Assembly (NCBI RefSeq): GCF_000003815.2
Contig: NC_049984.1
Location: forward strand, 7,721,446-7,785,445
Length of the DNA: 64,000 nucleotides
DNA from: Branchiostoma floridae
Lineage: Eukaryota > Chordata > Leptocardii > Amphioxiformes > Branchiostomatidae
Reading direction: 5' to 3'
Under the pieces are notes generated by a model. The model made no database searches. It was not told the origin of the DNA and saw only the letters and a program-made list of their open reading frames with translations. Below, one piece after another: positions 30,157 to 63,337 of the stretch. Within the stretch, counting starts at the first letter, position 1. Each line of letters starts with the position of its first letter. Position numbers and translations under genes: made by a program.

Positions 30157-33100
30157 TCACACATTCATGGGTTCTTTCTCTGGGTTGTCACTCTCATGGG
30201 TTTTGCCTGTGACGAAAGAGAGAGAAAGTTGTGCATTTGTTCGAATCTATATATATTTTTGAATCTGTCCAACATCTGGTCCATTGATTTTTTCAGATTA
30301 CAAGAAAAAATGGTACCTACCCCTACTAAACACATGACGAATAAGGCTCTGTGTAGTACTGTTTTTAAATGCAATATAAACGGCACTTTTGGACCCACCT
30401 GACTTGACCACCTTGATGCTTCCGTCTGGCTGTTGCACAGCGCGCATGCCTGGCCTCAGAGCAGTGGCCCTCGTACCATCATACACCACGATAGCAGGGG
30501 CCTGGAATTAGGAACAACCCACACATCAATCAACTGTGTACATACAATCAGCTCTTTTCATTCAATGGCCTCATCTTTTTTCGAACGGTGTGATCAGATA
30601 GCCTGGTATCCAAACCTATTATGGCTCCCAAGTCTCAAATATGAAATATTCTCAAGTCTCAAAATATGAATTTGCGGAGAGTGTTCATTGGGTGACGGTC
30701 ACGACGAGATGCTGCTCTTCAAACCCTGGTGATCTCTAAGGACTCCTGGTTCAGGCCCTCTGGATGTAGTGTTCTGAGTTGATGAATCCAGTAGGACTCC
30801 CGTTGCAGGCGGCGTTGTCTTGTGGTGTCTTCATGTCCTGTGTAGCGTAGTTTTTCGATTCCAAGAACTTCAAGGTCTGCAATGTTGTGATCTGTGAGGT
30901 TAAAGTGGGCTGATACCGGAGTGTCCTTCTTCGTGTTGATGGATGATCGATGGCCGTTCAGTCTATTGGCCAACGTTTGTTTGGTCTCGCCCACATATTG
31001 TAGCCCGCATTTCTTGCATTGGATGAGATAGACAATGTTTCTGCTTTGGCAATTGATGTGGTTCCTGATGAGATGACGCTCTCCCGTGCGGTGGCTTGTG
31101 AAGTAGTTGATCTTCTCCCGTGAGGTGGCTTGTGAAGTAGTTGATCTCTCCCGTGCGGTGGCTTGTGAAGAAGTTGATGAATTTGCGGAGAGGACAGAAG
31201 AGACTCTGAGACTTGGGAGCCATAATAGGTCTGGATACCAGGCTAGTGATCAGATTCCCACAATCCATTAACACATTCTTTTAAAAGTTGTGCTGACCAA
31301 AATATCTGGAAACACAAACACACACACGCACACACACAGACATACACACACATACACATGGAACAATACCTCTATTTTTCACATGCATGTGCAATTGTGT
31401 GGAGTCTGTTTCCAATCACATTTAAATTTGTCAAGCACTTTAAGCGAAGGCACACCACAAAAGGTTTAATTGTTTGCGCATGTTTACCTCGTGTCCATGG
31501 TAGCCTGCACACAGTCCTGAGCAGCTGACGATGGACATGATCATGCACAACAGGAACTCGATGATGGCCAGCACGATGATGACGATGAGCAGGGCTGCCT
31601 GACTGTCCTACAATTATGGAGGAGAGATAGAAGGGACATTCATGTCTCACGAATGTCTCACAGCCTTGAGATAAAGCACAAATGTACAGCAGTTTTAGAA
31701 GGAGCTATGTCAGTCATCTGAAAGTGTTTAGAATTTAGGGGTTTTGTTGACATCATAATGATTTGATAATAGTGTCATTCCATGTTGAAGGGGGACAGCC
31801 CTATAATATTACCTTTATGGGGTTATGGTTAGGGGTAGGGGTAGAGGTAGCATTAGGTTAGGGTTAGGGTTTAGATTAGGGTTAGGGGATGTCAGGGCTT
31901 AGGAGCATCAGAAAATAGGGGGGGTGTCAGAATTAACATAGGCAGCTAGGGCTGTTGGTCTAACCAGGACTACCCCTGCAGGGAGCTGATGTGTGTCACA
32001 GACAGACAAAAGATGTACTCTAACATGGCATTAATGACTTCATCAATATCTTAATCCTTATAGATAGATTTGGTCACCACAGCTATTCAATGTTCCTCCA
32101 AATGAGATACCTTCCAGGTCTTGTACGGCGGGGGAGCGGCTGTGTTGTTAGCCGCAGCGGTGGGGATGACGTAGTCCACGATCCTGATGTAGTCATCACG
32201 TGACGTGTCCAGGGTGCTGTCAATCACTCCCAACACCCAGGTGACAAGCGTGAGCACCATGGCCAGCAGGCTGCAGGTCAGGAAACCTGTGATCTACAGG
32301 TGTAATAAAACCCATTAATATATTTACCAGCTTGGTATAGATGATTTACAGACAAAATAAGACCATGTTCATTCCAGGAATCACCCAGCCACAGGATTGG
32401 TCCCAATTCAAACTGTCGAATCCTTCTGAGGTGGATTCGTTGCCCTACAAGACACAAAGACAGCCCTAGTATGAGAGACTTCAGTCCCTTGAGGGAATTC
32501 AGACCCTCTTGCTAATTCAGACAGTGTAAGAAAACTTTTCAATGGCTTAGCGAGAAAACAGTATACATAAAAATCCTGTGTCAACTCAGTTGCTCTAGTC
32601 CTTCTCAACCCCAAGGCACGTTTAAAACAATAAATCAAAGATGTAATATCTAGGTGAAATATTCAGTGAAATAAATTAGATTTTGTGAATAACTTAATGC
32701 CATAGCCATTGCTAACACAGGTCAATGTTAGTGATCCTCCTCTTCCCTTCTTCCCTAAACCAATCTCAGCTATCTCCCTCCCATTCCACACTACTTTCAA
32801 GATGGCGGTTTCGTCAGTGCCGCAGTACCTTAACAAACTGCTAAAGGGCCCAAAATCGCCACATTTCTTTAGAACCAAATAAACTACTCACATGCTAAAA
32901 TTAATAATGTTACAAATCCATGAAAGGATTTTGAGTTATGGGCAAACACACAAACACAACTTAAAACAGTAACGTTACTCCTGTATGAGGTGAACCTCAT
33001 TGCCCAAGATAACTTCAACATGTGCTGTCTCACCTTACATCCATTGGAGGGCTCCCTGGCACTCGCGATGGCCAGAGCTCCAGCAGCTATGACCTGTTAA

Positions 33101-42489: not shown

Positions 42490-43105
42490 ACTAGTACTGA
42501 TACTTAACACCATCCATACCACACAGAGGCAAACAATCAGACCTTCCCCTGGTACTGAACACCATCAACACCGCATAACGTTACAGGCAAACAGACCTGT
42601 CTCTGGTACTGAACAACATCCACGTCACACACAGGCAAACAGACCTGTCCCCGGTACTGAACGCCATCCACAACACAAACAGGCAAACAGACCTGTCTCT
42701 GGTACTGAACACCATCCACACCACACACAGGCAAACACACCTGTCCCCGATACTTAACACCATCCGCAACATAAACAGGCAAACAAAATTGTCCATGGTA
42801 TTGAACACCACCAACACAAACAGACCTATCCCTGGTGCTGAACATCATACATTCCACACAGGCAAACAAACTGGCCTTTCCCTTGTGCTGGACACCACCT
42901 ACACCACACAGAGGCAAACAGACCTGTACTGAACACCATCCACACTAAAGACAGGCAAACATACCTGTGTCTGGTACTGAACACTATTCACACACACAAA
43001 CAGATTTGTCCTTGGTACTGAACACTATTCACACACACAAACAGATTTGTCCTTGGTACTGAACACCATTCACACACTCAGACAAACGGACCTGTCCTTG
43101 ACGCT
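42490..43105. repeat. Minisatellite, about 47-bp unit
   Basis: Thirteen or so units built on AGGCAAACAGACCTGTC, TGGTACTGAACACCATCC and ACACCACACAC, with unit lengths varying by a few bases. An open frame on the minus strand (42537-42917) merely reads through the repeat. Confidence 0.85.
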
Positions 43106-44812
43106 GAATACCATCACCAGCATAGCCGTTTTTCAATGGTTGCGGGACAAGTCTTATTCAATAATTTTTGTTTGGTTACATGGTTTTGTGCCAAACTGCA
43201 GTCACCTTTAGTGCAGGCGTTCTCAGTCTCAAAAGAGCCAAATGTTGATGCTTTTTCATGTTGTCAGCCAACTCACTTGATGACAATCATGATCAGTGCT
43301 TTATTAGCCAATAGTGTGATATTGTCTAGTTCCCTCGTTGGCACGTGAGGGAAACAGCCTGAAACGAATCATATCACGCCTATAACAATACCAAGTCAAT
43401 AAAACGGCAAGCCACACTGAGTATGACATCCTCTGAGCAACGAAAAATCAATGCTAGGGTGCGAAAAAAAAATTGAGGAGCAAAATAGAAATACTTTGTC
43501 TTCATTATGAAGCATAAGTGGTCACTTCAAATGACGTTGAAAGACTATCTTTTTCCTGACATTTTTTTTTTTTTGCAATAAACGGCGCATATATCCTCAT
43601 TTTGCAACTTCTTTGCTCGGTTTACAGTTTGGTCGCAACCTTTCTTTTATTTACAGACGGCGATGCCCTAGCGCTGTGTCAGACCTAAACGGAGGTCATA
43701 AGAAAAACCCTGCAGTAGATAAATCTTCAATGTCCATGAGGGTCGACAGGACTTGTGTTTGACACCAGAGGTGTTTACAACTTGTGGATAGAGCAGTCGA
43801 GGGGTCAGGCGTTGGAATGCCGCCCTAAGTCAGAGGTCAGCAGGATGATTAGAGAAACATGGGCGATTCAAGGAGCCAAGAATGTCTCAAGTCACAGCAA
43901 AGAAAATTGCACGTGTCAATGTTGGTTTCGGAGGGGGAGGGTACCATGGAGTGACCGCGCCCAATATTGGACTTTGTGGTAACAACGTACAATGTCTCTC
44001 TCTTTCCCTCATTGGCACTTCTACTCGGCTGATTACTTTGAATGAACTTAATTCCTCGACAATAGTACTCTACAACTAATCTTATCTATTATAATCTTAA
44101 TTACAAATTATCAACATCTGAATATGGGTTACTATACAGTCATGTATGAATGATATCGTCTCGCCTTTGGTATGAAGAATAAAACGTATGCAATTGATTC
44201 AAACAAATAGACATGTAGACTATATTGGTTGATCTTTTTAGGTCAACAGAAGACAGTTTTCGTTTGCATGGTTAAGAATCGCAAAGGGAGAAACTTCGAC
44301 ACTTCAAAATTTACAGTACAGTGTCAGTGCACAAGGAAGTAACAAAATAGAACATTTGTGACTTGGGGCTATAATCTACAAAATACGTGAAAATGAGTTT
44401 GTCCGCTCCTTCGCTTTTCAGGCCCACTTTTATTTGAAGTTCAGCGGAGGTCATATCGGAACTGCAGCCGACGCACAGTAGTAGGCGGCAACAGTATTTA
44501 AGCGAGAAGTTACGTTGACGGAGCAAACATCGTAATCAAAAGTCTCAAACTGACGCAATAGTATTCCTCTGCCATTCAGCACAATTTGTAATCTGCCTCG
44601 CTGACGTGCACAGGAGAATCTGCAAGACCTTATCAAGTACTGTGACGCACATCTTTATATCGAACTACTATTGATGGAGGTCGACGCAAATGAATACTGT
44701 GTTCTTTGACCTTGTTCATAAAAGGCTTAGTTTAAATGGTGTTATTCATGATCGACACAGAGTAGATGTCCTTGATGCGTCGATGTAGGTTAGACATCCA
44801 GGTAATAAGATA

Positions 44813-44897: not shown

Positions 44898-46316
44898 ATG
44901 TCCTTGACAATGCTTGATCGGTAATAGCGTCCCCTAGCGTGTGGCATAAGATTGTATGGCATAAGTTTCCACCAAATCTCGTGTCCCTTGTTCGACAGAA
45001 AGGCTTACAAAAACGTCTTAATTATGGGTGTTTAACAGTTTAAATGGACCCTGTAGATTCGGTGTGATATCAGAAAGCCGTGTGGTATGTTCGTAAGGTT
45101 ACAGGTAGATGGTTATTTTGCGGGAGGCCATTAGCCAAGAAATACTATATACAAATGTACTATAACGTTGATAATATTATACTGACATTCCATTGCTGCA
45201 GAGTTTGATTCGATTTATTAGACAGCATAAAAACATACAGCCAGCGCTAGCATTGACTCTCATATTCCACCAGATGCCATAATACAATCACATGAGAAAT
45301 ATGTGAATTTAAAGTGATTTAGTTTAAGAGATGTATCAATGCAGCATCAGTAATCATGAGGAATATACACTGGCAATATTTACGTATTCAGGACAATATT
45401 GAGAAGGCCTCTTTAACAATTTTTTTTTTCTGGTGGTATTATGGCACACTGTGGAATTATGAGAATAAATGTTACCCAACTAGCCAAAGGCTGTTACAAA
45501 GAGTAAGCCCTGATAACTGAACAATTAGTGGTATGCAAGAGTTAATGAGGAAGAAATAAAGTCATCTACAAGTATAAGACTTAGGTACCATATATAGTTT
45601 TTACAGTTATACAGTTAAAGTCCTACAGATTAAGCAAGGCAATGACAGGCTGGGTTTACTAACCTAGCTAATGGTCACCATTGGTTGTTATCTAGTACTA
45701 GTGTTTGTAATTGATCAAAACCGTTTACATTTCTGTTTCAATTTGATGCCCATACTGGCCTGTTGTTGGCCCCCGACTTTCACAAATGCTAGTGATTTAT
45801 GTATTCTCTGTCAGAACGTGAGCATGACAATTTAGACAATGTCTGTCACACAACCAACTAGTTTGTTCCTTAGGACACACCAAATTATTTTCCTGATTAT
45901 TTCTCTGTATTATATTCTGATTTGAAAGAAACAGAAGAAAGACAATTCACATACATCAAAATATGAATCAACCCCAACTGCTCAAGTATTAGCACCAACA
46001 GTTTAGGAAACTTCTTGTCTTCCTAGTTGTTACAGTAACTGTTTATCCATTCATCTTTACATAAAAATTTTCAACATAATAGAGTATTAGTGTTCTTCTC
46101 ATAAATGTTAGTGTATGTTGATATTTCAATACTGAAGTAGAAATAGAACAGGTGTTATTGCACCTTTAATTGGTCCATGTCTTTCAATCATCTTCTATAC
46201 TATTGTTTTTCTTTACGTGCAATTAGCCCTTGGGCATGAATTTGCAACAACAAGCACATATATTTGTTACAAGTAAAATGTATATAGCTAAAAGCTGAGT
46301 TCAAATCAAGTTATTC

Positions 46317-49070
46317 TTAGCATGTTTCGGACACTCTGATTTCATTCCCCGTTCCCACCTGTACATTGGAAGAACCTGTGATGTTGATGTATGTTGCCTG
46401 ACCTCCCTTGGTGCTATGGACTGACCCAGCATCAGTACCTGACTGTTTATCTGTTACAGATGGAGGGTACACAAGGCGTATATCTACTGTCTCAGAAGCA
46501 CTACATCTTCGGCATCTCAGACTATGGATCCCAAGGGGACGCCTTTGCCTCAACAAATCACCCGGAAAGTAGTGGGCCTGCCCGCGTTGTGCATCTTCTT
46601 TCTTCAGGCAGTGGCAGCAGCCGATCCAGAAAGTGTAGGGAAGACCTGGCCACTCTTTCAGCAGGCTTCGGAGCACTCCATACACCTTCAAGAGGTCCTC
46701 CCATGCTTTGTCCACGTGGTCCATCGGAAACCTAGTCGCCATCGTGATGCTTGCGTTGTTCTCTTTGCTGACTTCACGTCTCACATGTAGGGGGAAGTCA
46801 CCAAACGAGGCAAGTATTCCGTTTGCCCAGTCCAGACGGTTCCCGATGTGTGGATCTATCTGTGCACAGAACCTTTCATACAGGCCCCATGGTGTGAACC
46901 CTCTCATCACACAGAGGATGGTCAGTTGGTCCTGCTTCTCTGGACACACAGGGAACCACTTCTCATGGACATCACCAGGCATCTCAGTAGAGAGAAGCCA
47001 GGTGAACTGATACATGCTGGAACTCTCCACCCTGTAAGCCCTGGCAATGGAGCCTGCTCCACTCATCGGGACTGGATAACAGATGCCAAATCTCTCCAGA
47101 AGCTTCACGACGATGTCCATGTTGTTCGGCGGCTGCTTCATCCCCTTCAGCAGATGGTGCAGGGTGTCTATGGACATCAGGCCAGATCGCAGCAGGTCCT
47201 CCTGAAGCTGCCTCTGCTGGATGTGGTCCACCTTCAGGCTGCTGATGTTCCTGATCATCGTGTCGGTGTTGTGGTGGTACAGCTGCTTCAGGATGTCTGT
47301 CAGCCTGGCCGGGTTCTGGAACACCACGTTCTTCAGGTCTGGGATGTCGTTGAAGTACAACACAACTCCTCTCTTGTGGAGATAGGCGATGGCTGGATGA
47401 AGTCGGTCCGCACTCAGTCCCACTTCCCGTCCCAATGTCTCCACCTCTTCCATGGTGAGCCACAGTGTTGGTTTCTTCCTTTCAGCCAACATCCGCTGCT
47501 CCAGACTTACCCATGTTTCTGGCAAAACACGACACAAAGCTGGGAAAACATCCTTGTTGAGGGCCAAAGACACCAGCTCTTTCTTGAGGTCTTCAATCCC
47601 TTTGAGAGGGTCGGCTGAGCTGACCTGTGCCACGCACCACTGCAGCTTTGGCTGGCTTTCTAGCATAGCTCGGAGCTTGTGATACCGTTTGAGCATTCGT
47701 TCTCTGGTGACACCATGTAATGGGTGACCAACCTCAATGACGCTGGAATCACTGATGACATCTTCGATGGTCTTCATCTGATCCTGGATGATCTGATCTT
47801 GCTTCTTCTTATCTCTGTGAAGCTGGTCACAGATGTCTTCACATTTCCACCTGACGTCCTTTGGTGAGCAGCGGTCAACGTGGGTGCCGACCAGGCGGAT
47901 GACTGCACCCGGAGTGTGCGCATTCAGAGCCTTGGCCCACTTCCCAACCAACTCTTCAAACTCTGCTGGCTTGTACTGCTCCAAGTTGACTGTCAGGACA
48001 TTCATGGCCAACGGGGACAGAAAGAATTGGTGTACAAAGTCATACACCTTGTGGCCCCCGAAATCATACACCTCCAACTGGAGGTCTTTATCAGCTTGCC
48101 ACAGCTTCACATCCATGCAGTGAGTCCTGTCTTCTTCTCTGGTTAACCTGGACCTCTCCTCCATCAGGGCATGGCAAAGGCTCGTCTTTCCTGCAAACGG
48201 ACTCCCCAGCAGGACCATCTTCATCTTAGGCTGCACAACAGCCCGACACCTCTGCAGCTCCTCTTGATACTTCAGTATGGCTTGAATCCCCTGTTCACAA
48301 ACCTCGTATGGCGGCTGCACCAAGGGGTTATTGGTGGTGCTGAGGTACTTGAGCGACGAAGCTAGCTGACCAAATGTGTCTGGAAGCTCCTGGATGCAGT
48401 TGTCCATTACAGACAGCCACTCAAGTTTTGATAGGTTACACATTGTTTTAGGCACAGATGCAATCTTATTTTCCCCTGCATCAATCCTTTTGATTACCTT
48501 TAATCTGTCTATGGCTTCTGGAAGATGTTTCAACTTGTTCATGGCCACTTCTAGTACCTGTAGGCTGTCTCCAACATCTAAGACGATAGCTGGAACTTCT
48601 TCAAACTGGTTCTGACTGAGGTAGAGATTCATTAAGTTTTGCAACTGACCAAAACTTGCAGGCAACTCCTTAAGATGGTTTCTGTGCACATCAAATGACT
48701 TCAGGAGTGACAGACTGCCAATACTACTGGGCAATGAATGTAACATATTCCCAAATACAAGCAAGGTTTCCATCTTTCTAAATATACTTATCTGCTCTGG
48801 GAGACTTTCAATGTTGTTGTCTGCTAAAGACAACTCTTCTAACTCTGACAAAGCAAACAGTTCTGAGGGAAATGCTGATAAACAATTGTTATCCAAATAA
48901 AGCTTTGTCAGGCAACCAAGTCTTGTAAAGTTTGATGGAAGCACCACGAGCCTGTTTCTGCTGAGAAACAAGTGTTCAGCCTTTTCTTTCTCCAAAACAT
49001 CATCTGGAATGCGGGAGAGACTGCGATCCGTCAGTCTGACTGCCTTGACATTTCCAGCTGCATTAGCACC
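46317..49070 (-). CDS. Large last exon of the ROCO gene: LRR, Roc, COR and RHIM-like tail
   Basis: It starts after TCCTAG with [13 protein letters not shown] and stays open for 2.75 kb. Counting from the Leu codon at 48995 as residue 1: LRRs at about 15-230 (repeated LP..F/I..L..L..L.L..N pattern); Roc at about 255-470 with P-loop 264-271, DFGG 311-314 and THVD 371-374, the usual NKxD position; COR at about 480-640; a conserved extension to 845 with Cys793, 794, 796, 828 and 831, possibly metal-binding; a polar linker; and VQVG at 878-881. All switch-region residues needed for nucleotide binding are present, so this exon looks functional. Confidence 0.9.
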   Translation of the reverse strand, partial: GANAAGNVKAVRLTDRSLSRIPDDVLEKEKAEHLFLSRNRLVVLPSNFTRLGCLTKLYLDNNCLSAFPSELFALSELEELSLADNNIESLPEQISIFRKMETLLVFGNMLHSLPSSIGSLSLLKSFDVHRNHLKELPASFGQLQNLMNLYLSQNQFEEVPAIVLDVGDSLQVLEVAMNKLKHLPEAIDRLKVIKRIDAGENKIASVPKTMCNLSKLEWLSVMDNCIQELPDTFGQLASSLKYLSTTNNPLVQPPYEVCEQGIQAILKYQEELQRCRAVVQPKMKMVLLGSPFAGKTSLCHALMEERSRLTREEDRTHCMDVKLWQADKDLQLEVYDFGGHKVYDFVHQFFLSPLAMNVLTVNLEQYKPAEFEELVGKWAKALNAHTPGAVIRLVGTHVDRCSPKDVRWKCEDICDQLHRDKKKQDQIIQDQMKTIEDVISDSSVIEVGHPLHGVTRERMLKRYHKLRAMLESQPKLQWCVAQVSSADPLKGIEDLKKELVSLALNKDVFPALCRVLPETWVSLEQRMLAERKKPTLWLTMEEVETLGREVGLSADRLHPAIAYLHKRGVVLYFNDIPDLKNVVFQNPARLTDILKQLYHHNTDTMIRNISSLKVDHIQQRQLQEDLLRSGLMSIDTLHHLLKGMKQPPNNMDIVVKLLERFGICYPVPMSGAGSIARAYRVESSSMYQFTWLLSTEMPGDVHEKWFPVCPEKQDQLTILCVMRGFTPWGLYERFCAQIDPHIGNRLDWANGILASFGDFPLHVRREVSKENNASITMATRFPMDHVDKAWEDLLKVYGVLRSLLKEWPGLPYTFWIGCCHCLKKEDAQRGQAHYFPGDLLRQRRPLGIHSLRCRRCSASETVDIRLVYPPSVTDKQSGTDAGSVHSTKGGQATYINITGSSNVQVGTGNEIRVSETC

Positions 49071-52000
49071 CTAGGAGAATACAGATTTACATTAAATAAC
49101 GGTACTCAATTCCTTCATTACAATCTTTAACATTAAACTACAAAAGTGTACCTCTCTCCCCAATGGCAGTAAGGTGAGGCCTGTGATAGCCTCCAATTCT
49201 AAAATGTACAGTATATGGTACACAGTCCATTTTATCATCTATTTTACTGAAATATTTTACAGCTGGAACAGTGTCTTTCTTCATCAAATTTCCAATCAAA
49301 GGGACAGAATGAATATTGCATTGACAAATTAGATGATCAAATAAACAAAACAGGCATGCAAACAAACAAACAAGCAGATGGGTGTATTACCTGTTTACCG
49401 CCATATTCCTCCAACACCTTCACCACGTCCAGGTGATGTCTCTCTTTGGCATGGTCAGTAGCAGTCATGCCCACCTGATGCACAGGAAACATGAACAAAC
49501 GTGAGTACAAATCACAAACAAGTATGAAATTCATCTCATTTGCCACTATGGGATTATATTATGCAATGAGATCTTAATTTGCATTATTTGTATTCCTCTC
49601 TTTCTCAGTTATATATGCCACATGTTTCAGAGTCCCATCATGGAATGCAGTAGATATATACAATATCCTCCATAATTATGCAAATTACTTCCTAATGTGC
49701 ATAATATGCATCTGAACATGTCAATTGTCACTAAAGTTATTTAAAGACTAAGAATTATGACTATCCATTTGACACCTTCTTGAGTTATTTTCTGTCAATA
49801 TATATATACGAGTGTACAATATGTGTACAATATTTCTACAATTTCCGTTTAGTCTGCATGTAACTGTTTGGCAGTACTGTACATGTTTGTCACATTATGC
49901 TATCTAAAAAGCTAAATTTTTGTCCTATCATAACATTCTTTGGAAGGATGGCAGAAATGATAATAGCCATGACTGGTGACAAATAAATACTAGTACCTTG
50001 TCAACAACATCCAGATTCACTCCAGTCTTTAGGAGGAGGTTCAGAATCTCCAGGTGTCCTGCTTTAGCGGCCAGGTGCAGAGGGGTGTAACCTTCCTGGA
50101 AGGGATTCCAGGAAAACAGTAATCATGACACACAGGGAAGCATTAGTCTGCTCTCTTTAAACTGTGTTTCAAGTCGCAGTAATCTGTATCTCTGTTATAT
50201 CTTATCTGACCCTTACCTCATGACCTATGATACATTGTATATGAAAAACGGACTGCAGGCTGTTTTGAGCTTCTTGTGCATATATATATATAAATAAAGG
50301 TTCCAACAAACAAAAAAAAGCAAACAATATCGGCCACTGCAGTTCCAAAGAGGCTGCTAGAAGCCTAAAGCCGACACCACAAACTCCTTGCATAATGACA
50401 GGAATATCTCACATCAATATGTGTTTAACTAAATCAACCAACCCAGTTTTGCTTGTTCTTGTCGGCACCATATTTGGACAGCAGAGCCTGAACCACGTCA
50501 AACTTGTTGTACCACACAGCACGGTGGAGAGGACTGCACCCAACCTACAGACAGATATCATGTGGACAAGAATACTTCAGGAACTGTATGTGTACATGTG
50601 TGCGTGTGCATACTTGTGTGTGAGTATGTGTGTGTGCATGAATTATCCAAATATAAAATAGAAACATAACAAAAAAATTTTGTCATATCTCATCATACAT
50701 TGATTTTCAATAGATTGCCACTTGTGTCCAAAAACTGATGTTCCATAAACTGTATCATATTATGTTTTGTTATCAGATGGAACAATAACCAACAGCCTTC
50801 AACCAAAATATTTGTGAGTGACCAGTCTGTATCGAATTCAAAGTTGGTTGGCTGAAAGTTGAAGGAGTCAAATGGAATTCTTATGAACTTTAAGATACTA
50901 GCAACAAAGGAAAAGTAATGCTAGGTCACCTTTACCGATGGAGTAGTGCACTAGGTATATACATTGTTTTTAAAATCAGAGTATTGAGCCGGACATCATT
51001 TATGTATACAGAGTCGATGGAGGGTGGTTTCAAACTGCAATATTTTCAAAATATTCCAATTGGAAACCACCATCAGTCAACAACCCTAAATATCAAGTTT
51101 CTAAAAGCAATGGATTAAGCTTACTCTGCGGATAAAGGTGAACCAGCATTAAACCTTGAGTAATATGGATAATCATCAGTAGTTTCTCCCATACCTCATC
51201 TTCACTGTCAACTTGAGCTCCAGCATTGATCAGTAGGTCAATGACCCCGAGGTCGGCCACCGCTGCAGCACAGTGTAGGGGTGTGAACTCGTGGGCCCTT
51301 TTCTATCAAGTTGGGAAGCATGAGAAATTCCATTATTAAAAAGGGATATAGGGTGATCACATAGCCTTTTAGGGGCCATATTTTTACCTCCCCAACCCAA
51401 ATCATTTTTACACCTGAGTGGAGTAAGGAAAGTCATGTTAAGCGCCTTTCCCAAGGACACAACGTCAAGCCAGAAATGCCAGGAATTGAACCTGTGACCT
51501 CTTGATTTCGTGTCCACTAGCCTAGCAATACGGCCATTCAATGCAAAAGTCTTTTCATCATAACACTTCGCATAGTCAGTTTGAAATTTTGAAGTTAGAT
51601 TTTATGTCACTTTGGATTGATACGATAACGCCTTTGATAAGATAAACGATTACTATAGGCATGTGGCATTATACCAAAGGTCTGTAAAATCCAAGCAAAA
51701 TACTGTATGAAGGAATTTAGATCTTATTTACTGTAGCCAGTTTGCACTTCAGCATACATGGAAATATATTTGTAATTCCATGCACACGTCAAACAAAATT
51801 CTGGCTTCCTTTAAGAGACCTTAAAGTTACAGAAATGACAAACTACATAACAGCTTTTCTACCATGCATGTGTAATAATATGTGTACATATTTATTAGCA
51901 CTTTGAATGATGTAACCTGTATCTATCTGTTATATTTTGTTTGACCCTAACTGCTTCCCTCATTACCTGAATGAAAGCGGCCTGCAGGCTGATGTGAGCT

Positions 52001-52308
52001 TCTCATTGATAAACAAAGGTTCAAACAAAAAAACACTGTGACCATTCTAAGAACACAGCAACTTGTCCCTAGCCTGGGTACCATCCTATTTCTACCGAGG
52101 CTCCTTGCACTTGCTGTCCTATTTTTTTTAGGGCAGCGAGTGCACAGAGCGCCAGTAGAAATAGGATCATGGTAAGCAGGCTTGCCTGTCCCATCAGACT
52201 CACCAGATCAGGCAGCTTACACTCACACCTGCCGTCCACATCCTCCCCTTCCTGTACCAGCTGGCTCACTCTGCGCTGGTCACCCTTAATAACTGCAGCA
52301 TGGAGGGG
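46317..52308 (-). CDS. Ankyrin-LRR-Roc-COR (ROCO) protein with C-terminal RHIM-like motif; 5' end not found
   Basis: Minus-strand exons 52308-52204, 51302-51195, 50544-50443, 50096-49997, 49474-49391 and 49070-46317, all phase 0. The first five each code one ankyrin repeat (for example [15 protein letters not shown] and [13 protein letters not shown]). The last exon codes 917 residues: nine or so LRRs; a Roc GTPase with P-loop [13 protein letters not shown] and THVD; a COR domain; a region with CCHC and CRRC cysteine pairs; and a tail ending [18 protein letters not shown]. Roc-COR proteins are GTP-switched dimers. The order matches LRRK1, but no kinase follows: a TGA ends the exon 11 residues after VQVG. 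The fourth ankyrin exon has 100 instead of 99 bases, a frameshift. Upstream exons with the start codon were not found. Roles in innate immune or cell-death signalling are inferred. Confidence 0.85.
49997..50096 (-). CDS. Ankyrin exon 4 of the ROCO gene, frameshifted in this sequence
   Basis: Between clean splice sites (TTCCAG and GTACTA) the exon is 100 bases. The ankyrin pattern reads [17 protein letters not shown], then continues as [13 protein letters not shown] only if one base of the T triplet at 50040-50042 is dropped. As written it runs into a stop. Neighbouring exons are both phase 0, which supports an intended length of 99. Confidence 0.8.
50190..50330. repeat. Dispersed retroposon-like repeat, copy 1
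   Basis: Shares with 51919-52036 the ordered blocks TGTATCTCTGTTATAT, TGACCCTTAC/TGACCCTAAC, GCCTGCAGGCTG-like, GAGCTTCT and AAAGGTTC...AACAAA with an A-rich end. Probably a SINE or LINE 3' tail in an intron of the ROCO gene. Confidence 0.5.
51919..52036. repeat. Dispersed retroposon-like repeat, copy 2
   Basis: Second copy of the 50190-50330 family, in the preceding intron, reading CGGCCTGCAGGCTGATGTG then GATAAACAAAGGTTC and an A-rich tail. Confidence 0.5.
52070..52183. mobile_element. TAGCCTGG-family MITE
   Basis: Left end TAGCCTGGGTACCATCCTAT, right end ATAGGATCATGGTAAGCAGG, with paired inner arms TTTCTACCGAGG and CCAGTAGAAAT. Flanks ACTTGTCCC and GCCTGTCCC look like a 9-bp duplication with two changes. 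It lies 20 bp from the donor of the first visible ankyrin exon. Confidence 0.7.
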
Positions 52309-52410
52309 CTGAAAGGGAGAACAGATTTATAATATGAACTCTGTATACTGTACAAAGGTATTGTTTTCAGAATGTGCCTGTCTGTCTGTATTTCTGCAGT
52401 TCTTTCCATA

Positions 52411-52622
52411 TACTGTAAATGTATTTAATTTCGCAGGGATTTAATTTCGCGGTGGCGAGAAAAAGGACTTTTCGCGGTGGTTTTAAGTTCGCGGTAGCAC
52501 CATGCACTGTAGTCTCTTGATGCCATTGAAAAATGTTTGCGGTGGATTTAAGTTCGCGGTGAAGTGGCCACCGCAAAAACCGCGAACATTAAACCACAGC
52601 GAAAGTTTCTGCATTTACAGTA
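52411..52622. mobile_element. Complete CGCGGTGG-family MITE
   Basis: The ends TACTGTAAATG and CATTTACAGTA are inverted copies, and CCATA flanks both (52406-52410 and 52623-52627). The interior reads TTTTCGCGGTGGTTTTAAG, TTCGCGGTAGCACC, TTCGCGGTGAAGTGG and AACCGCGAAC. This is the best preserved copy in the window and defines the termini. Confidence 0.85.
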
Positions 52623-52635
52623 CCATAATGCTTTA

Positions 52636-53178
52636 AAGGCGCCCAGAGCAGTTTTTTAGTCTTTTCAAATTTAATTTTCAAGTCATTTTTACACACAGTA
52701 AGCTTGAATAACACTATCTCATTGCATATCGACCTTTATTGAGCAAAGATGATACGTCGTTGAGTGGTGAGAACTCATTAAAAATCTGAGCGCTGCACGT
52801 GCCATTATTTCAAATTTGTGGAACGCACGCGAACATGACCGATGAATCCCGAACGCTTCCGGAGGTGTCGTCACTTGTTCGAATAAAGTTTCGATTTGCG
52901 AACGGGCGAATCAGATTCAATTTGCTCGGTGACCTCATGCGTTCGAAAAGTACCGACGGGAAACCGTTAGTGGCTCGATCCTGTGCTGATTTATTGTAGG
53001 ATATAATAAATCAAAGGGGTCCGTTTGCGGCATGTTTGTGCGTCCTTTTAAACGCTGAAAGTACGAAATAATGACACAAATGTGCTAGAATGGTAAAGTA
53101 AATGTCAATACCGTACCGATTGTCTCATCCAGAATATCCCCAATTTTAATGCACTAAAAACTGCTCTGGGCGCCTTTA
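52636..53178. mobile_element. TIR element (AAAGGCGCCCAGAGCAG ends)
   Basis: TTTAAAGGCGCCCAGAGCAG at the left and CTGCTCTGGGCGCCTTTAA at the right are near-perfect inverted copies. The interior is non-coding and richer in CpG. It abuts the CGCGGTGG element, so two transposons lie side by side. Confidence 0.75.
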
Positions 53179-55013
53179 AGCGTTATTTGCCAGATGTTGG
53201 GCAGTGCTATAGATGAGAGTTAATCAGGCTACCCTCTGTCCAATCCAGATTTTTTTACCTACTCCCGTCTAATCCAAAATTATTTTTACCCAACCCCATT
53301 GTCAACCCTTTCCGCATACCACAACACTGGCTTTTCATCGACGTCATAATAATTTGCATCCCCGGCCACAAATTATGTTGTGTAAAGGGACTCTCGAAGC
53401 TCCAGGGAAACATTTCAAAGTGGGCCAGAGGACAGTTGTTTTATGAGAAAGAGATCTAAATCTAATGCCCATGTAAGCCCATTAGATTCAGGCCGTATGT
53501 GCACATTGTTCCACAGCTTGGGTCAGAGAAATATACCGGAAGTGCCAGATTATTCTCACACAAACTTCTATATCGCCGCGGTTCTCGGTCTAAACAAGGA
53601 GGTTATATAGACCTTCTTGGTCTAAATTTCTTTTCAACGACTTACTGACCTTCATATCTCTGCGCTGATCCTGTTAACAGGGTACAGAGGAGTCCTCCTT
53701 CCGACTTGTTTCTTCACCAAAAGAAAACCGAAAGTTCTGGGAAAGTCCTGTCTTCTATCATCCATTGTCAGAAAGGTCAGAGTTTACTGGGTCAGAGTTC
53801 ACCAAGCACCACGCGTTCTGGTGTGATGTATTATGAATGTTTTCATTGATTATGTAAATAAGGTCTTTGCATAGATTTCAACAGGTGATCATCTCTAAAA
53901 ACACGCGACTTCTTGATAAAACATAATAGTATAAACCAAGGAGGTTAAAAATCGCCTTGTATAAACGGCAACGACTCACCAGCGAACTCCGTGGGGTGTA
54001 ATTCCCACGGATACCGCCCAGTGGCGTTATCCAGTCATGATGAAGGTTACAAATGTGCGTTCGAACATATTGAATGATGTCTACTAAATGTTTGGAGTTA
54101 TTAGAAAATGATTCTTTTATTAGACAAAAACAATTAGCAATTTCTAGCAACTACAGATAATTGGTATATATACGTTTCTGGCATTCATCATTATGTAACG
54201 TAAGGTTACCAGTTTACGTCAATACGTGCAGGACCAGTTTACGGTCACTTATTGGTGGATGCAGACTTCGAGGTCAATTGTAAAAAAGAAAATTCTCTTG
54301 AGTAGGAAAGAAGTACGTTTATATCATCTATGTGTCTTGCCTTATTTATCCTATAACTTTGCATCCAGCAAATCACGTCTGAAAAGTCCGACAACAATTT
54401 ACATTTACGCTTGAGTGCGCACAACACTATTACAGATGACCCGGTTCTGATCGTAATTCTAGACGGCTATTTTCGTCCCCTCTTTAAAATCCAACAAACT
54501 CTTTATGAATTGAAACATCACCTCAAACCAAACCTGGAGTTCTCATCTCAAGAATGCATGGTGATTTTATGTATGTTGTCCAAGGAAACTCTTATAAACT
54601 GCATAAAAACAAGTGACTGTCCTCGCCGAGCGGGTAGTTTTCGAACGCCATGTTGTATCACGTGACTTGCCCGTTAAACGTAAAACTGTTCTATATATAC
54701 CAGTAATACTCCATACCCTGGTCTATCGAACATAGTACAACGTAAAAGAGCGCGCCGCTTCCGGGTCCGCTCAGTTGTGCTCGGGACGCCGTGAAAGACG
54801 GACGCACGGCAAATGCGCTCCCGCAAGTCCGTTATCACACTCTTTGATTGATATATATCACCCACCATACACTTTGAGCGACTATCTTATGGTGAAATCA
54901 TTATGATCAGTGCTAAATAAAGGACTAATTTCTCCTGGTACCCATGCACCTGGTATCATAGTAGACTATATGGAGTAGATAACTATACACGATATACATT
55001 GAGTCGTAACGTC

Positions 55014-56581
55014 ATGGGTCATTATAAAAGGATGAAATCTGAAAAAGATCAGACGGGCACTTTCTCCAAAGATTATTTCACTGTTAGGAGCAACCTGACA
55101 AATGCCCAGCGGCAGACCACGGAGACCCGGAAAGGCGAAAGTCAGCGCATCGGTAAGTTTCTTTGTTTGTTTAGTAAGCCGTGTTTGTAATCAAAGGTAC
55201 CCTAGGTTTGACAGTATAGCATTAGTTGTGAATATTAGTTAATATAGGTAAAGTAACTGCTTAGCTTTTAATTAAAAATAAAAATAGGTCTAGCTAACTA
55301 AAAACGCTATGACTGCAGTGTGTGGATATGATAGATCACATGGGGTGAAGGTGCAAGGGTCACAGTGCACGTCCTTGCAACAGCTGACGGCAACTTCGTA
55401 GGGCAACCTATGCATGCTGGTAGAGAAGTCCACGGCACTTCAATTCTCAGTCTCTGCATTAGGTCGAAAGAACACATCATAGTAACAATCAACCGATTTC
55501 ACTCAAAGTTAGGCGACTTCACAACGTACTCGGATTTTTCTGCCAAATAGTTGTGTCTGTGAACGGGGTAGCGATTATCAACGCTGCTGACTTTCGGATT
55601 GCGTGTATCATCGATGATTGAGGTAATTCTAAGCTAAATTGCTATAAAAGCGTGGATGGTGGCTGTATTTACATCAGAGTGAATTGTAGTTGCTGTTTAG
55701 TGTCCCTAAACTGTTAACTTCAAGACTACAGTCGAACTGAACGGGCTATGATCTAACTTTATATGTATGACACTTAGCTATCGTGCAACACTTCTTACCC
55801 GCATTTGATCTCCTCAGACCCAGAGGTAACGTTATAAAGATGATAGTACATTTTTTGTCCATGGAAGTAACATACATGCATGAGAGAATTGTAGTGTATG
55901 AGACATGGAAATCAATACATAGAAAATACAAACACTAGCAAAATACCGATCAATGCTAGGAAAAAAAAAAAAATATGCCCATGGTGAAAACATTATGCCC
56001 ATAGTGAAAACATGATTATGCCCATAGTGAAAACATTATGCCCATAGTGAAAACTTATGCCTATAATGAAAACCTATGCCCATAGTGAAAACTCAATTAT
56101 TTGAACACACATGTCAACAAGGAGCTATAATTGTTCCACTACTGCAAGTGCAAAGACACTTTACAAATGAATATTCATGTACACTCTGGAGATATGACAT
56201 ATGATGACAGAAGTTAAAACTTGCAATAACTTGTTCAAATTCCAATAACAAATGTAAAAAAAAACTATGTCATATATAATGTACAGCAATAATTGTCTAA
56301 TTAAAGATTATCTCAGTCAACTTTGCTGTTAGGAAATTTCTCATACTTGTATACTGAGTAAAAATAGAGGCACTTGAACAAGCTAACTTCTCCAAAAAGG
56401 TAACTGTTTTGTACAATTGCTTTCAACTATCAAGTTTACTGGTATCATTGTGGCAAGGATGGACGATGAATTTGACTATAAACAAGCAACATTCATACCT
56501 AACTTGATAATGAAAATTGCAGGCATGGACAGTGATGAGTTGATCAACTGCTCAAAACTTCCACCTCTATATAGAGAGTGA
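55014..56581 (+). CDS. Weak candidate two-exon small protein
   Basis: An ATG at 55014 opens 46 codons to a strong donor (ATCG before GTAAGT, phase 1). A second exon after TTGCAG at 56523 would complete the phase and read GMDSDELINCSKLPPLYRE to a TGA at 56579-56581, overlapping AATAAA. Product 64 residues, basic, no known family. The acceptor has a poor pyrimidine tract. It may be chance. Confidence 0.2.
55974..56095. repeat. Tandem repeat, unit TTATGCCCATAGTGAAAACA
   Basis: Six to seven degenerate copies of a 17-22 bp unit; non-coding. Confidence 0.8.
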
Positions 56582-59191
56582 ATAAATAGAGGGCTGAAAA
56601 ATATTTGTGGTGACTTGTGCCTTCAACTGTGTTTACTGGAGTATTTGTTGTGTTCATGTATTTATCCAGAAATATGCTGTTGATATCTTTTCTTCAGACA
56701 ATATGTCATTAGTGAAACAAAGTCACAGAAGCATTTTACTTGCAAATAATGTTACCAGTGCAACATACAGTTGTGTATTTATTACATATCCTGGCACAGA
56801 ACACAAGTATTCTGAGTGTCACAGAAACCTATTGCTGACAAGTCCATCAGAACATTCTTGGGAAAAGAACAATTACATCTTCAATCAAGTTGCCTAGACC
56901 ACCTCATTGCTTTCAAAGCCTTCTCTCAGGGACAGTACTGTGTTTAACACACCATTTTGTATCGAATTATGGACAGTAACAATCAAGGAAAATATAGTCA
57001 TCAGGACCAGCAGCCAGATGTGTTGAAGCCTGTTGGATATGTATGATAGTATGTAGTTGTCCACTCCTTACAATCTGAACATAATGTGCAAAATGAGCCA
57101 TGTTTGGGTCTTTAAGGTGCAGTGTATCATATCATATTTTCTTCAGGATGAAGTCAAAATGGTTTTGCACTTGTAACATTAGGGGACATTACATGTTGTA
57201 ATGAGTTTGTTAGTTGATGTTGCAATGTACTGAAAGTAAAACAAGATCAATGTCAATTGCTCTCAGAACATTTTGTTGTATTTTTGATGTTGAAATGTGT
57301 ATTCTGTCAATCTAGCAACTTGAAATGTTTAAGTTTTGATTAAATGGTTGTCAGTTGGGAATGCTTTCCTATTTTATCATGTACAATGATAATAAAATAC
57401 TCAACTTTAGAGACGCATTGCCATCTTTGTGTCACAAAATAGGCATTAGATACCAGCATTGTGATGAAAACCCTATTAGTTTGTCAAAACTGTTCTGTTC
57501 AAAAAGCAACTGTTCATCAAGTTGCTTACATCGTAAATCACCTTACCAATCATAGCTGGTATAACTGTCTTTCCTCAGGTATGCCCTTCGGCCCACTCCT
57601 TCCCGGTTTTGTTGTTGTGTGTCCATTTAGGTGTCATATATCGGGCCAAGTGTGCGACATAACCGGGGGATTACGTTACCAATGCTGCATGTGGCGGATC
57701 TCGATAGCAACATACACTGTAGTTGACTTCAGCAGCATTAGGGTACGTTATATTGATTTTATGTGAGCTCAGATTTATGTGAAATTAGTCGACAAATAGT
57801 CCCAACTTTCTGCTTTGTTCCCGATACACTGGAGTCAGCGCTCCGTGTGAATCTGTTTTCTTACCGTAACAAATTCGAATTACCGTTCACCTCCCCTCCC
57901 AAAAACCATTACTCTACTCGTGAAATCGACATTTTCTTCTCATGGATAGGATTTAGAATCAGGTGAAGAAATATGAAATGAGCAGGGTACACCATACACA
58001 CAGTGTCCTTGTTCCTTATTGTGTCTATGACGCCGAGTTCTCTGTTACTGCCCGACGTCCCTTTCATGACCTTGCCACTGTTGAGTGAGAGTCACTACTG
58101 AACATGTTTGGGATTTCATGTTGGACCAAAAAAAATATCAACACTTGTATTTTCTAAACTAAGGGGCAAGTCTTTCGTTCAACAAGTCTGAAGCAAGTTA
58201 CGTACACCCAAGGATAAGATTGTGTGATCGGCAACAAACGATAGTTTGTTATCTTGTCATGTGATATAACGTTAGTTGTAAATACGTATGCGGGAGGGAG
58301 TTCGGCTTGTACACAGTGAAATGTACTGTATGTAACGCTACGGACTGTAAGTAACTGAAGGGCACGAGTCAGAAATTTATATTCTTAGTTACTGCAACTC
58401 TGAGTCACGTACTTACGTACGCTAGTGATGTATTGGACCGCACACACACTGCTACAGTTGTACGGGTTGACTACAGGTACATGTTACTGGTCAGTAATGG
58501 ACGTGAGTAGGCGTAAACCGCTGCGGTACAAGTAACTACAGTTGCAGTGTTGTGTGTTTTCATTGTGTCGCCAATTTGTAACCTAAAACGCCTGACATTG
58601 GCGGCGGCTTGTTTTACCGCGGGAGCATATCACTTGTACGTCTGCCCACCAAGACGGTCAGTGTCAAAATGAGAGGTTACCCTTCTGGCAGGAAGGTTTA
58701 GGATATATATAGTATTCTGAGCCGCGGCCGTTGGCGCGGCGTTCCACCCGCAGAAGTTTGGAAGGGTTCCGCCTTCTATAGCGAACTTTTCCGTTTAAGG
58801 ATGACGGGAGCTTGCGACATTTAATCTAATTCTGGATTTCCTATTAAGTACATTCGTCTATGATTATTTATCCTTATCCATGTCAAGCGACATAAGTAGC
58901 CACCATTACATCTCAGTCACATGACTGGTTTACTCTATGGAAATACTGCTCCACTCTTACAGCTACGCATCTAACTCTGAGTTTTGTTTAAGCGACTGAA
59001 TGAATTCCTCTAATACAATGAATCTTGAAAAAAAATTCCTCGATGACGTTCCACAAAAGACTACGTGCTGTTCTGATCCCATCCTTAAATGATGAAATGT
59101 TTATCTTCGAATGTTTAGCATGTATTGAATATGGAAAATAATAAGTTAAAACTCACGGATGTCAGAAATGTTTAGGAACATCTCAACCGGA

Positions 59192-61665: not shown

Positions 61666-63337
61666 AGGTGGGTTTACACCTGCGTATATTTTCATGCCGC
61701 ATGAGTTCCGTTTTGACATTTTTCGACATTTTGACTAATTTCTTCAATACGCGGCCGCACGCACAAGTCGCACCTCTATCGCATCTGAATCGTTTTTAGA
61801 AAGTTTCACGAACGCAGGCAAACGAAAATATACGCCCAGTTCACCTGATAGTTTTGGACATGCACAAAACTATCATTCGTACGCAGTTTGGTGCCCAAAA
61901 CGTTATGGATGCGCAATACAGTGGTCCCACGTCGGTCGATTGCGCTATGAAGACGCTACATGATTGCGCTTTATACGCAGTAATACGCGGATATCGCGGT
62001 ATTGCGAGTACATAGCGTTCTTACAGCGCAGACACAACGCACCATGAGCGACCGTATAACGAATGCACACATAGATCACGATTTAGTACCGTGCGTTCTG
62101 CAATCGCTTTGCGCATACTACGCGTCCTGATAGCGTGATCGACGCACACACTCCAGATCNNNNNNNNNNNNNNNNNNNNNNNNNNNNNNNNNNNNNNNNN
62201 NNNNNNNNNNNNNNNNNNNNNNNNNNNNNNNNNNNNNNNNNNNNNNNNNNNNNNNNNNNNNNNNNNNNNNNNNNNNNNNNNNNNNNNNNNNNNNNNNNNN
62301 NNNNNNNNNNNNNNNNNNNNNNNNNNNNNNNNNNNNNNNNNNNNNNNNNNNNNNNNNNNNNNNNNNNNNNNNNNNNNNNNNNNNNNNNNNNNNNNNNNNN
62401 NNNNNNNNNNNNNNNNNNNNNNNNNNNNNNNNNNNNNNNNNNNNNNNNNNNNNNNNNNNNNNNNNNNNNNNNNNNNNNNNNNNNNNNNNNNNNNNNNNNN
62501 NNNNNNNNNNNNNNNNNNNNNNNNNNNNNNNNNNNNNNNNNNNNNNNNNNNNNNNNNNNNNNNNNNNNNNNNNNNNNNNNNNNNNNNNNNNNNNNNNNNN
62601 NNNNNNNNNNNNNNNNNNNNNNNNNNNNNNNNNNNNNNNNNNNNNNNNNNNNNNNNNNNNNNNNNNNNNNNNNNNNNNNNNNNNNNNNNNNNNNNNNNNN
62701 NNNNNNNNNNNNNNNNNNNNNNNNNNNNNNNNNNNNNNNNNNNNNNNNNNNNNNNNNNNNNNNNNNNNNNNNNNNNNNNNNNNNNNNNNNNNNNNNNNNN
62801 NNNNNNNNNNNNNNNNNNNNNNNNNNNNNNNNNNNNNNNNNNNNNNNNNNNNNNNNNNNNNNNNNNNNNNNNNNNNNNNNNNNNNNNNNNNNNNNNNNNN
62901 NNNNNNNNNNNNNNNNNNNNNNNNNNNNNNNNNNNNNNNNNNNNNNNNNNNNNNNNNNNNNNNNNNNNNNNNNNNNNNNNNNNNNNNNNNNNNNNNNNNN
63001 NNNNNNNNNNNNNNNNNNNNNNNNNNNNNNNNNNNNNNNNNNNNNNNNNNNNNATGCGGTCGGTAGACGTTGTGTGCGTCCGGAAAACGCCCAACATACG
63101 TACCCCATACGAATCTATTCGCAGTACGGAAAATTTTGTTGCGCATTTCAGTTGCAATCATACGCATCTCATGCGAAATGAAAACGCTGAAGTCGTAATT
63201 CAAACGCCAGATGGGCTCAACGTACAATTTAATTTATTCCAAAAAAATTCCAAATGTTGGGCGTTCGGCCGCGTATTGACAAAATTTCATGCGGAACTCA
63301 CGCGCACTTGAAAATATACGCAGGTGTAAACCCACCT
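61666..63337. mobile_element. TIR element C of a chain of three, mostly hidden by N
   Basis: The left end AGGTGGGTTTACACCTGCGT and the right end ACGCAGGTGTAAACCCACCT are inverted, with TAA on both sides (61663-61665 and 63338-63340). Arms extend through ATATTTTCA and GCGGAACTC. Up to 1.67 kb, of which 894 bp are N, so any transposase would be in the gap. The visible interior is rich in CpG and ACGC/GCGT words. The 3-bp TWA flank and internal similarity to A and B point to PIF/Harbinger-like elements. Confidence 0.7.
62160..63053. other. Assembly gap, 894 N
   Basis: Continuous N run. All apparent long ORFs across it are artefacts of translating N. Confidence 0.99.

Follow-up and report, generated by a model that had tools for sequence, protein, structure and literature searches.

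A RHIM-like motif at the C-terminus of an ankyrin-bearing ROCO protein of Branchiostoma floridae

A minus-strand open reading frame (ORF) of Branchiostoma floridae, at positions 46317-49070 of the 64,000-nucleotide stretch analyzed here (the window), encodes an LRR-Roc-COR protein that ends in a peptide resembling the RIP homotypic interaction motif (RHIM). We propose, with a probability of about 0.6, that an ANK-LRR-Roc-COR scaffold carries a RHIM-type assembly motif in its C-terminal signaling slot, a proposal that concerns one gene in one genome. In some paralogs this slot seems to be occupied by a caspase, Death, OTU or SAM module instead.

Architecture of the window gene

The sequence-only reading had placed a RHIM-like peptide, behind a polar linker, at the very end of a ROCO protein, and both the linker and the peptide were located there by translation, with the protein recognized by its Pfam matches to Roc and COR. 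The features of the gene, listed in the direction of its reading, are as follows.

52204..52308 (-): ankyrin-like exon 1, by eye; preceded by AG, followed by GT
51195..51302 (-): ankyrin exon 2, Pfam Ank 20.0 bits, slightly below the cut-off of 21.1; AG before, GT after
50443..50544 (-): ankyrin exon 3, Pfam Ank 33.7 bits; preceded by AG, followed by GT
49997..50095 (-): ankyrin exon 4, Pfam Ank 36.4 bits; preceded by AG, followed by GT
49391..49474 (-): ankyrin-like exon 5, by eye; preceded by AG, followed by GT
46317..49070 (-): large last exon with LRR, Roc, COR, Cys module and RHIM-like tail; 917 codons, stop to stop
48320..48990 (-): leucine-rich repeats, limits approximate; Pfam LRR_14 E 3e-22, LRR_8 E 8e-21
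47874..48221 (-): Roc GTPase domain; Pfam Roc E 5e-12, 46.6 bits (cut-off 27)
46500..47522 (-): COR-A and COR-B; Pfam COR-A E 2e-13, 50.8 bits (cut-off 35.3), COR-B E 4e-4
46461..46631 (-): Cys-rich module CCHC...CRRC...LVYPP, paralog-like, by eye
46392..46460 (-): polar linker preceding the tail, of Ser/Gly/Lys type according to the sequence-only reading; contains TCAG|GTACTG with GT at 46437-46438
46338..46391 (-): RHIM-like motif of 18 residues with the VQVG core at 46353-46364; from translation, Pfam RHIM and the same-genome RHIM profile
46317..46337 (-): terminal residues RVSETC and the stop codon TAA, from translation; GC 0.505 before the stop and 0.309 after it
46165..46170 (-): ATTAAA, a possible poly(A) signal about 150 nt past the stop, by pattern only

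The order of a Roc domain followed by COR, which defines a ROCO protein, was found by Pfam, with COR-B at 20.7 of the 27 bits that its cut-off requires. The G motifs of Roc were assigned by eye to a 15-residue stretch and to THVD, and PDB chains of LRRK1 and LRRK2 matched the ORF over or near its Roc part. Because the five upstream exons read as ankyrin repeats and the ORF supplies LRR-Roc-COR, we read the encoded protein as ANK-LRR-Roc-COR. Three of the five ankyrin exons were recovered by Pfam, one of the three slightly below the cut-off, and in the upstream region 49071-58500 nothing but ankyrin matches scored above the cut-off. Pfam found no kinase domain of the kind that marks RIP kinases and LRRK, either in the 917-residue ORF or in the 9.8 kb downstream on the same strand, and no TIR or Death domain in the ORF or downstream of it. 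Within those 9.8 kb, no Pfam domain of any kind scored above its cut-off on the minus strand.

Elsewhere in the window, two matches to the microRNA mir-2060, which we take to be a family known from Branchiostoma, scored above the Rfam gathering score at 42681-42770 and 43035-43117 (-), in or beside a stretch with repetitive-looking translations (CLPVCGVDGVQY...). A 176-residue ORF at 30719-31249 (-) looks by eye like a mobile-element nuclease of the GIY-YIG type (CGLQYVGETKQTLANRLNGHRS), and a withheld or masked stretch at about 62160-63060 reads N and is translated as X.

Resemblance of the tail to RHIMs

The C-terminus of the window gene consists of the 18-residue motif, RVSETC and the TAA stop codon (46317-46391, minus strand), which amounts to 24 residues by translation, one more than the 23 initially counted. 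The core tetrad V/I-Q-V/I-G is present as VQVG. In an alignment of seven sequences the V, Q and G of the core and an Asn three positions after the Gly (G+3) were invariant, and the tail has this Asn as well. It deviates in having Gly instead of the Asn or Asp that the majority of the compared motifs show four residues ahead of the core, and in having Glu at G+4. The VQVG core, the Asn at G+3 and the Ile and Ser before the core are shared with RIPK1, RIPK3, ZBP1 and TRIF (PF12721), and 8 of 14 residues of the tail are identical to the RIPK3 stretch NIYNCSGVQVGDNN of PDB entry 7dac. The window gene differs from these four proteins in that no kinase, Death, Z-alpha or TIR domain was detected in it, in carrying its motif on a ROCO protein, at the very C-terminal end, and in a motif score below the Pfam cut-off.

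When the last 27 residues were compared with 24,736 Pfam families, RHIM (PF12721) was the sole family listed (E 0.043), but the score of 13.8 bits fell short of the family cut-off of 20. The last 56 residues gave 12.0 bits (E 0.16), PF12721 was absent from the matches at E<=1 when the full 917 residues were scanned, and a PDB sequence search with the tail alone returned no match. As the tail misses the Pfam cut-off, we label it RHIM-like. Tandem RHIMs of the same genome fall below this cut-off too, namely both motifs of gene C11 (18.7 and 16.0 bits) and one motif of C148 (15.9 bits).

When the whole genome was searched with PF12721, seven matches reached E<=10, none of them in the window gene. 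Five of the seven fall in three two-motif genes, C135, C148 and C11, with C135 represented by its second motif only. A protein search added C235 (E 0.076, 27% identity), a fourth gene, whose two RHIM-like motifs score below the window-gene tail. The paired RHIM or RHIM-like motifs lie close to the ORF end at all four loci (L031 for C135, L032 for C148, L033 for C11 and L053 for C235). Weak, sub-cut-off TRADD-like matches were seen N-terminally at L031 (E 0.048) and L033 (E 0.017), and the flanks of two tandem-RHIM genes contained no kinase, TIR or Death domain at E<=0.01. The four paired-motif genes are possible partners of the window-gene tail.

The main RHIM profile was built from the six motifs of C135, C148 and C11, with the tail excluded, and was anchored on VQxG with default weights. 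It scored the tail at 20.2 bits as a 44-residue segment and at 21.6 bits as a 27-residue segment, and none of 20,000 full shuffles reached 20.2 bits (best 14.2; 17,952 reported). Within the whole ORF the tail scored 14.4 bits (best domain 13.1, E 0.02), and of the 6958 stop-to-stop segments from the 64-kb window and 37 loci, only the RHIM genes ranked above the window ORF. Segments with masked bases or shorter than 20 or 15 residues, depending on the search, were left out of the profile searches, with the masked ones retained in one search. Matches at L039 and L040 contain no VQVG core and were set aside as chance.

The register of this profile was chosen post hoc. A first profile of six sequences in a different register (--wnone --enone) scored the tail at 4.8-6.1 bits, which is noise, and its register was deemed poorer; the VQxG anchoring and default weights were adopted only once this result was known. 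We therefore used a PDB search in a MAFFT register, leave-one-gene-out models and an eight-motif profile as checks. The MAFFT alignment of the same six motifs matched eight PDB sequences at E<=10, comprising two of RIPK1 (20.6 and 20.5 bits) and four of RIPK3 (20.4 to 14.9 bits), the species of the chains not being given, a ribonucleotide-reductase-large-subunit-like protein (11.4 bits, E 1.6), and an envelope glycoprotein (10.4 bits, E 3.2) that was considered a chance match. The leave-one-gene-out models gave the following scores.

C135 omitted: its motifs 28.2 and 13.5 bits, tail 11.1 bits
C11 omitted: its motifs 30.6 and 24.4 bits, tail 16.2 bits
C148 omitted: its motifs 14.6 and 12.2 bits, tail 14.1 bits
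C235 omitted: its motifs 9.7 and 6.9 bits, tail 20.2 bits

Both held-out motifs outscore the tail when C135 or C11 is omitted; the tail falls between the two motifs of C148 and exceeds both of C235. Its lowest value, 11.1 bits, is not above the best shuffles of the other models. With the eight-motif profile the tail scored 17.3 bits, a score reached by none of 20,000 full shuffles (best 13.0). When VQVG was kept and the flanks were shuffled, only 8 of 20,000 sequences reached the tail score (best 19.5), so the flanking residues matter to it. The proposed RHIM pattern accordingly held in the same-genome profile and in the flank shuffles, but not at the Pfam cut-off.

Could the tail be translated, yet be no more than a common disordered C-terminus prone to beta structure, with a fortuitous likeness to a RHIM? 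The motif is short and sub-threshold in Pfam, the first profile returned noise, two of the four models rank the tail under held-out RHIMs, and the covered segments of the paralogs contain no such motif. We nevertheless hold a chance resemblance to be unlikely, given the rarity of core-kept shuffles that reach the tail score, the near equality of its score with those of the RIPK1 and RIPK3 chains, and its position at the place of cell-death modules in some paralogs. On balance these comparisons argue that the tail is quite probably a true RHIM.

ROCO paralogs and the translation of the tail

A ROCO search of the genome gave at least 74 matches, the best 30 of which were assigned to loci; these include the window gene, and the remaining 29 correspond to at most 27 distinct genes. 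The stretches covered reached about 1.5 kb to either side of a locus and, at six loci, a further 4 kb downstream. Within these limits, and among the loci that were resolved and scanned for modules, Pfam recognized a caspase, Death, OTU or SAM module past the LRR-Roc-COR core at 6 of the 29 paralog loci.

L003: OTU, downstream of the core; Pfam above cut-off, E 4e-15
L006 and L008: caspase, downstream of the core; Pfam above cut-off, E 7e-19 and 1e-16
L043, downstream of L009: Death; Pfam above cut-off, E 2e-13
L041, downstream of L002: SAM; Pfam above cut-off, E 3e-14
L007: Death in two pieces; Pfam below cut-off, 17.5 and 22.4 of 22.6 bits

We infer that these module exons are joined to the ROCO cores in transcripts. 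Further resemblances were noted by eye only, comprising caspase-like starts at L014 and L018 (the latter without a Pfam match), a Death-like stretch at L021, where Pfam gave one unrelated weak match, and a ZU5-like stretch at L044 without a Pfam match. The stretches scanned at L005 and L042 gave no Pfam match.

These paralogs share the LRR-Roc-COR core with the window gene, and L003, L006, L007, L008 and L043 also share the Cys module and an exon end of the LVYRP/LVYPP type. They differ in that a separate exon encodes their module, a folded domain, and in that no RHIM was found in them. The sequence-only reading had named the absence of the motif from the lancelet paralogs as a point against itself, and the RHIM profile indeed gave nothing above 6.4 bits in the paralog segments covered. 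Because these segments are without the motif and 6 of the 29 loci have other modules, the RHIM-like motif is particular to the window gene among the genes examined, and does not characterize the family. Query-anchored Roc-COR rows, L030 (coverage 0.53) excluded, gave a FastTree tree in which the window gene and L009 form a pair (support 0.958); the node after it is weak (0.254). The downstream exon of L009 encodes a Death domain, and an exchange between Death and RHIM at the C-terminal slot is plausible.

Comparison with the paralogs also bears on whether the tail is translated. By eye, a splice donor follows the Cys module and LVYRP/LVYPP or a similar sequence in 14 paralog rows, which represent 12 distinct genes (L027 is the same gene as L014, and L028 the same as L023). 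The donor is a phase-1 G|GT in 12 of 13 distinct paralog genes (11 of these 12 and L043), with L008 in phase 0. At the corresponding place the window gene reads TCA GGT ACT, and since this sequence occupies the donor place of the paralogs, a cryptic donor before the tail is possible. The tail would then be intron read-through, with splicing at an ancestral donor TCAG|GTACTG (46437-46438) into an unrecognized exon and a RHIM likeness due to chance, and the gene's own ankyrin exon 4 does end at a GTACTA donor. However, the best GC changepoint lies at 46327, near the stop codon, which itself fits 1.3 log units worse, against a deficit of 7.6-7.8 log units for the donor region. The 37 tail codons scored 10.5 bits. 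None of 330 overlapping non-coding windows came up to this value (best 7.1), and 29% of the 840 coding windows scored no higher than the tail; the codon tables were trained on the same stretches that supplied the comparison windows, with three paralog exons added to the coding table and the tail left out. Composition and codon use of the tail look coding. Intron read-through would further require the RHIM match to be a coincidence and a downstream exon although no above-cut-off domain was found in the 9.8 kb covered, and we consider it very unlikely.

A possible ROCO-based assembly

If the window gene does carry a RHIM-type motif on its scaffold, the ankyrin and LRR part may sense a ligand or damage, and the oligomeric state of Roc-COR would shift with the bound nucleotide under presumed GTP control. 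The tails, clustered or freed by Roc-COR, could then nucleate a cross-beta RHIM assembly of putative amyloid nature, which RHIM proteins of the same cell, such as the tandem-RHIM proteins, might join, and the assembly would pass the signal on to cell death or NF-kB. The effect of GTP on seeding may be reversed, as GTP-driven monomerization of a bacterial LRRK2 homolog is stated in the title of PMC11052575. In PMC12119088, where an NF-kB luciferase reporter was used, C-termini of non-mammalian RIPK1 are described as activating NF-kB in a RHIM-dependent manner, and a Branchiostoma RIPK1 homolog with a RHIM is reported; this contrasts with PMC9573974, which confines the RHIM to vertebrate RIPKs on the basis of SMART.

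The tail might alternatively act as a decoy that caps tandem-RHIM fibrils and restrains signaling instead of starting it. Herpesviruses have RHIM decoys (PMC7375649), and the ORF and its downstream region gave no kinase, TIR or Death match, which would fit a decoy. A multidomain, sensor-like scaffold of LRR, Roc-COR and ankyrin repeats is nevertheless more receptor-like than capper-like, and some paralogs have caspase or Death modules; a decoy therefore seems improbable to us, and an assembly-promoting motif on the ROCO scaffold is the reading we retain.

Among known proteins, LRRK1 and LRRK2 (RIPK6 and RIPK7) share LRR-Roc-COR with the window gene, and their structures are matched by it, but no kinase or WD40 was detected in the window gene, which has the RHIM-like tail in their place. 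PMC9573974 describes RIPK6/7 as ANK-LRR-Roc/COR-kinase proteins and MFHAS1 as LRR plus Roc, so that the likeness of MFHAS1 in LRR and Roc rests on published description, and it reports ANK-LRR-Roc/COR-kinase and other architectures among invertebrates, including amphioxus. Fungal PP and bacterial BASS3 motifs on NLRs likewise combine a RHIM-related amyloid tag with a nucleotide-switched, repeat-bearing receptor; they differ in having an NLR switch in place of ROCO, in the N-terminal position of the receptor motif in the fungal example and in their fungal and bacterial hosts (PMC7889193 and PMC12881547).

The combination of ROCO and RHIM is not known to be described, and no ROCO protein with a RHIM was found in the titles and abstract beginnings of the papers listed for RHIM, amphioxus, ROCO and NLR. 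Judged by their titles, the two papers naming both RHIM and Roc-COR concern kinases in neurodegeneration and alpha-synuclein, and the main text of the 2008 amphioxus domain paper contains neither RHIM nor Roc as a whole word.

More tentatively, and with somewhat less than even confidence, we suggest an animal ROCO-based amyloid signalosome, in which a GTP-switched Roc-COR scaffold signals by RHIM templating in parallel to fungal NLRs with PP motifs, and which would be one of the outlets of a ROCO family in lancelets whose members exchange caspase, Death, OTU, SAM and RHIM modules at a single C-terminal slot. Paralogs with caspase or Death modules at the same place make domain swaps natural, and the window gene would offer a simple test case for control of amyloid nucleation by a Roc-COR switch. 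If the proposal is true, RHIM signaling would extend beyond kinases, TIR adaptors and Z-nucleic-acid sensors to ROCO scaffolds, and the LRRK/MFHAS1 family would become linked to amyloid cell-death signaling.
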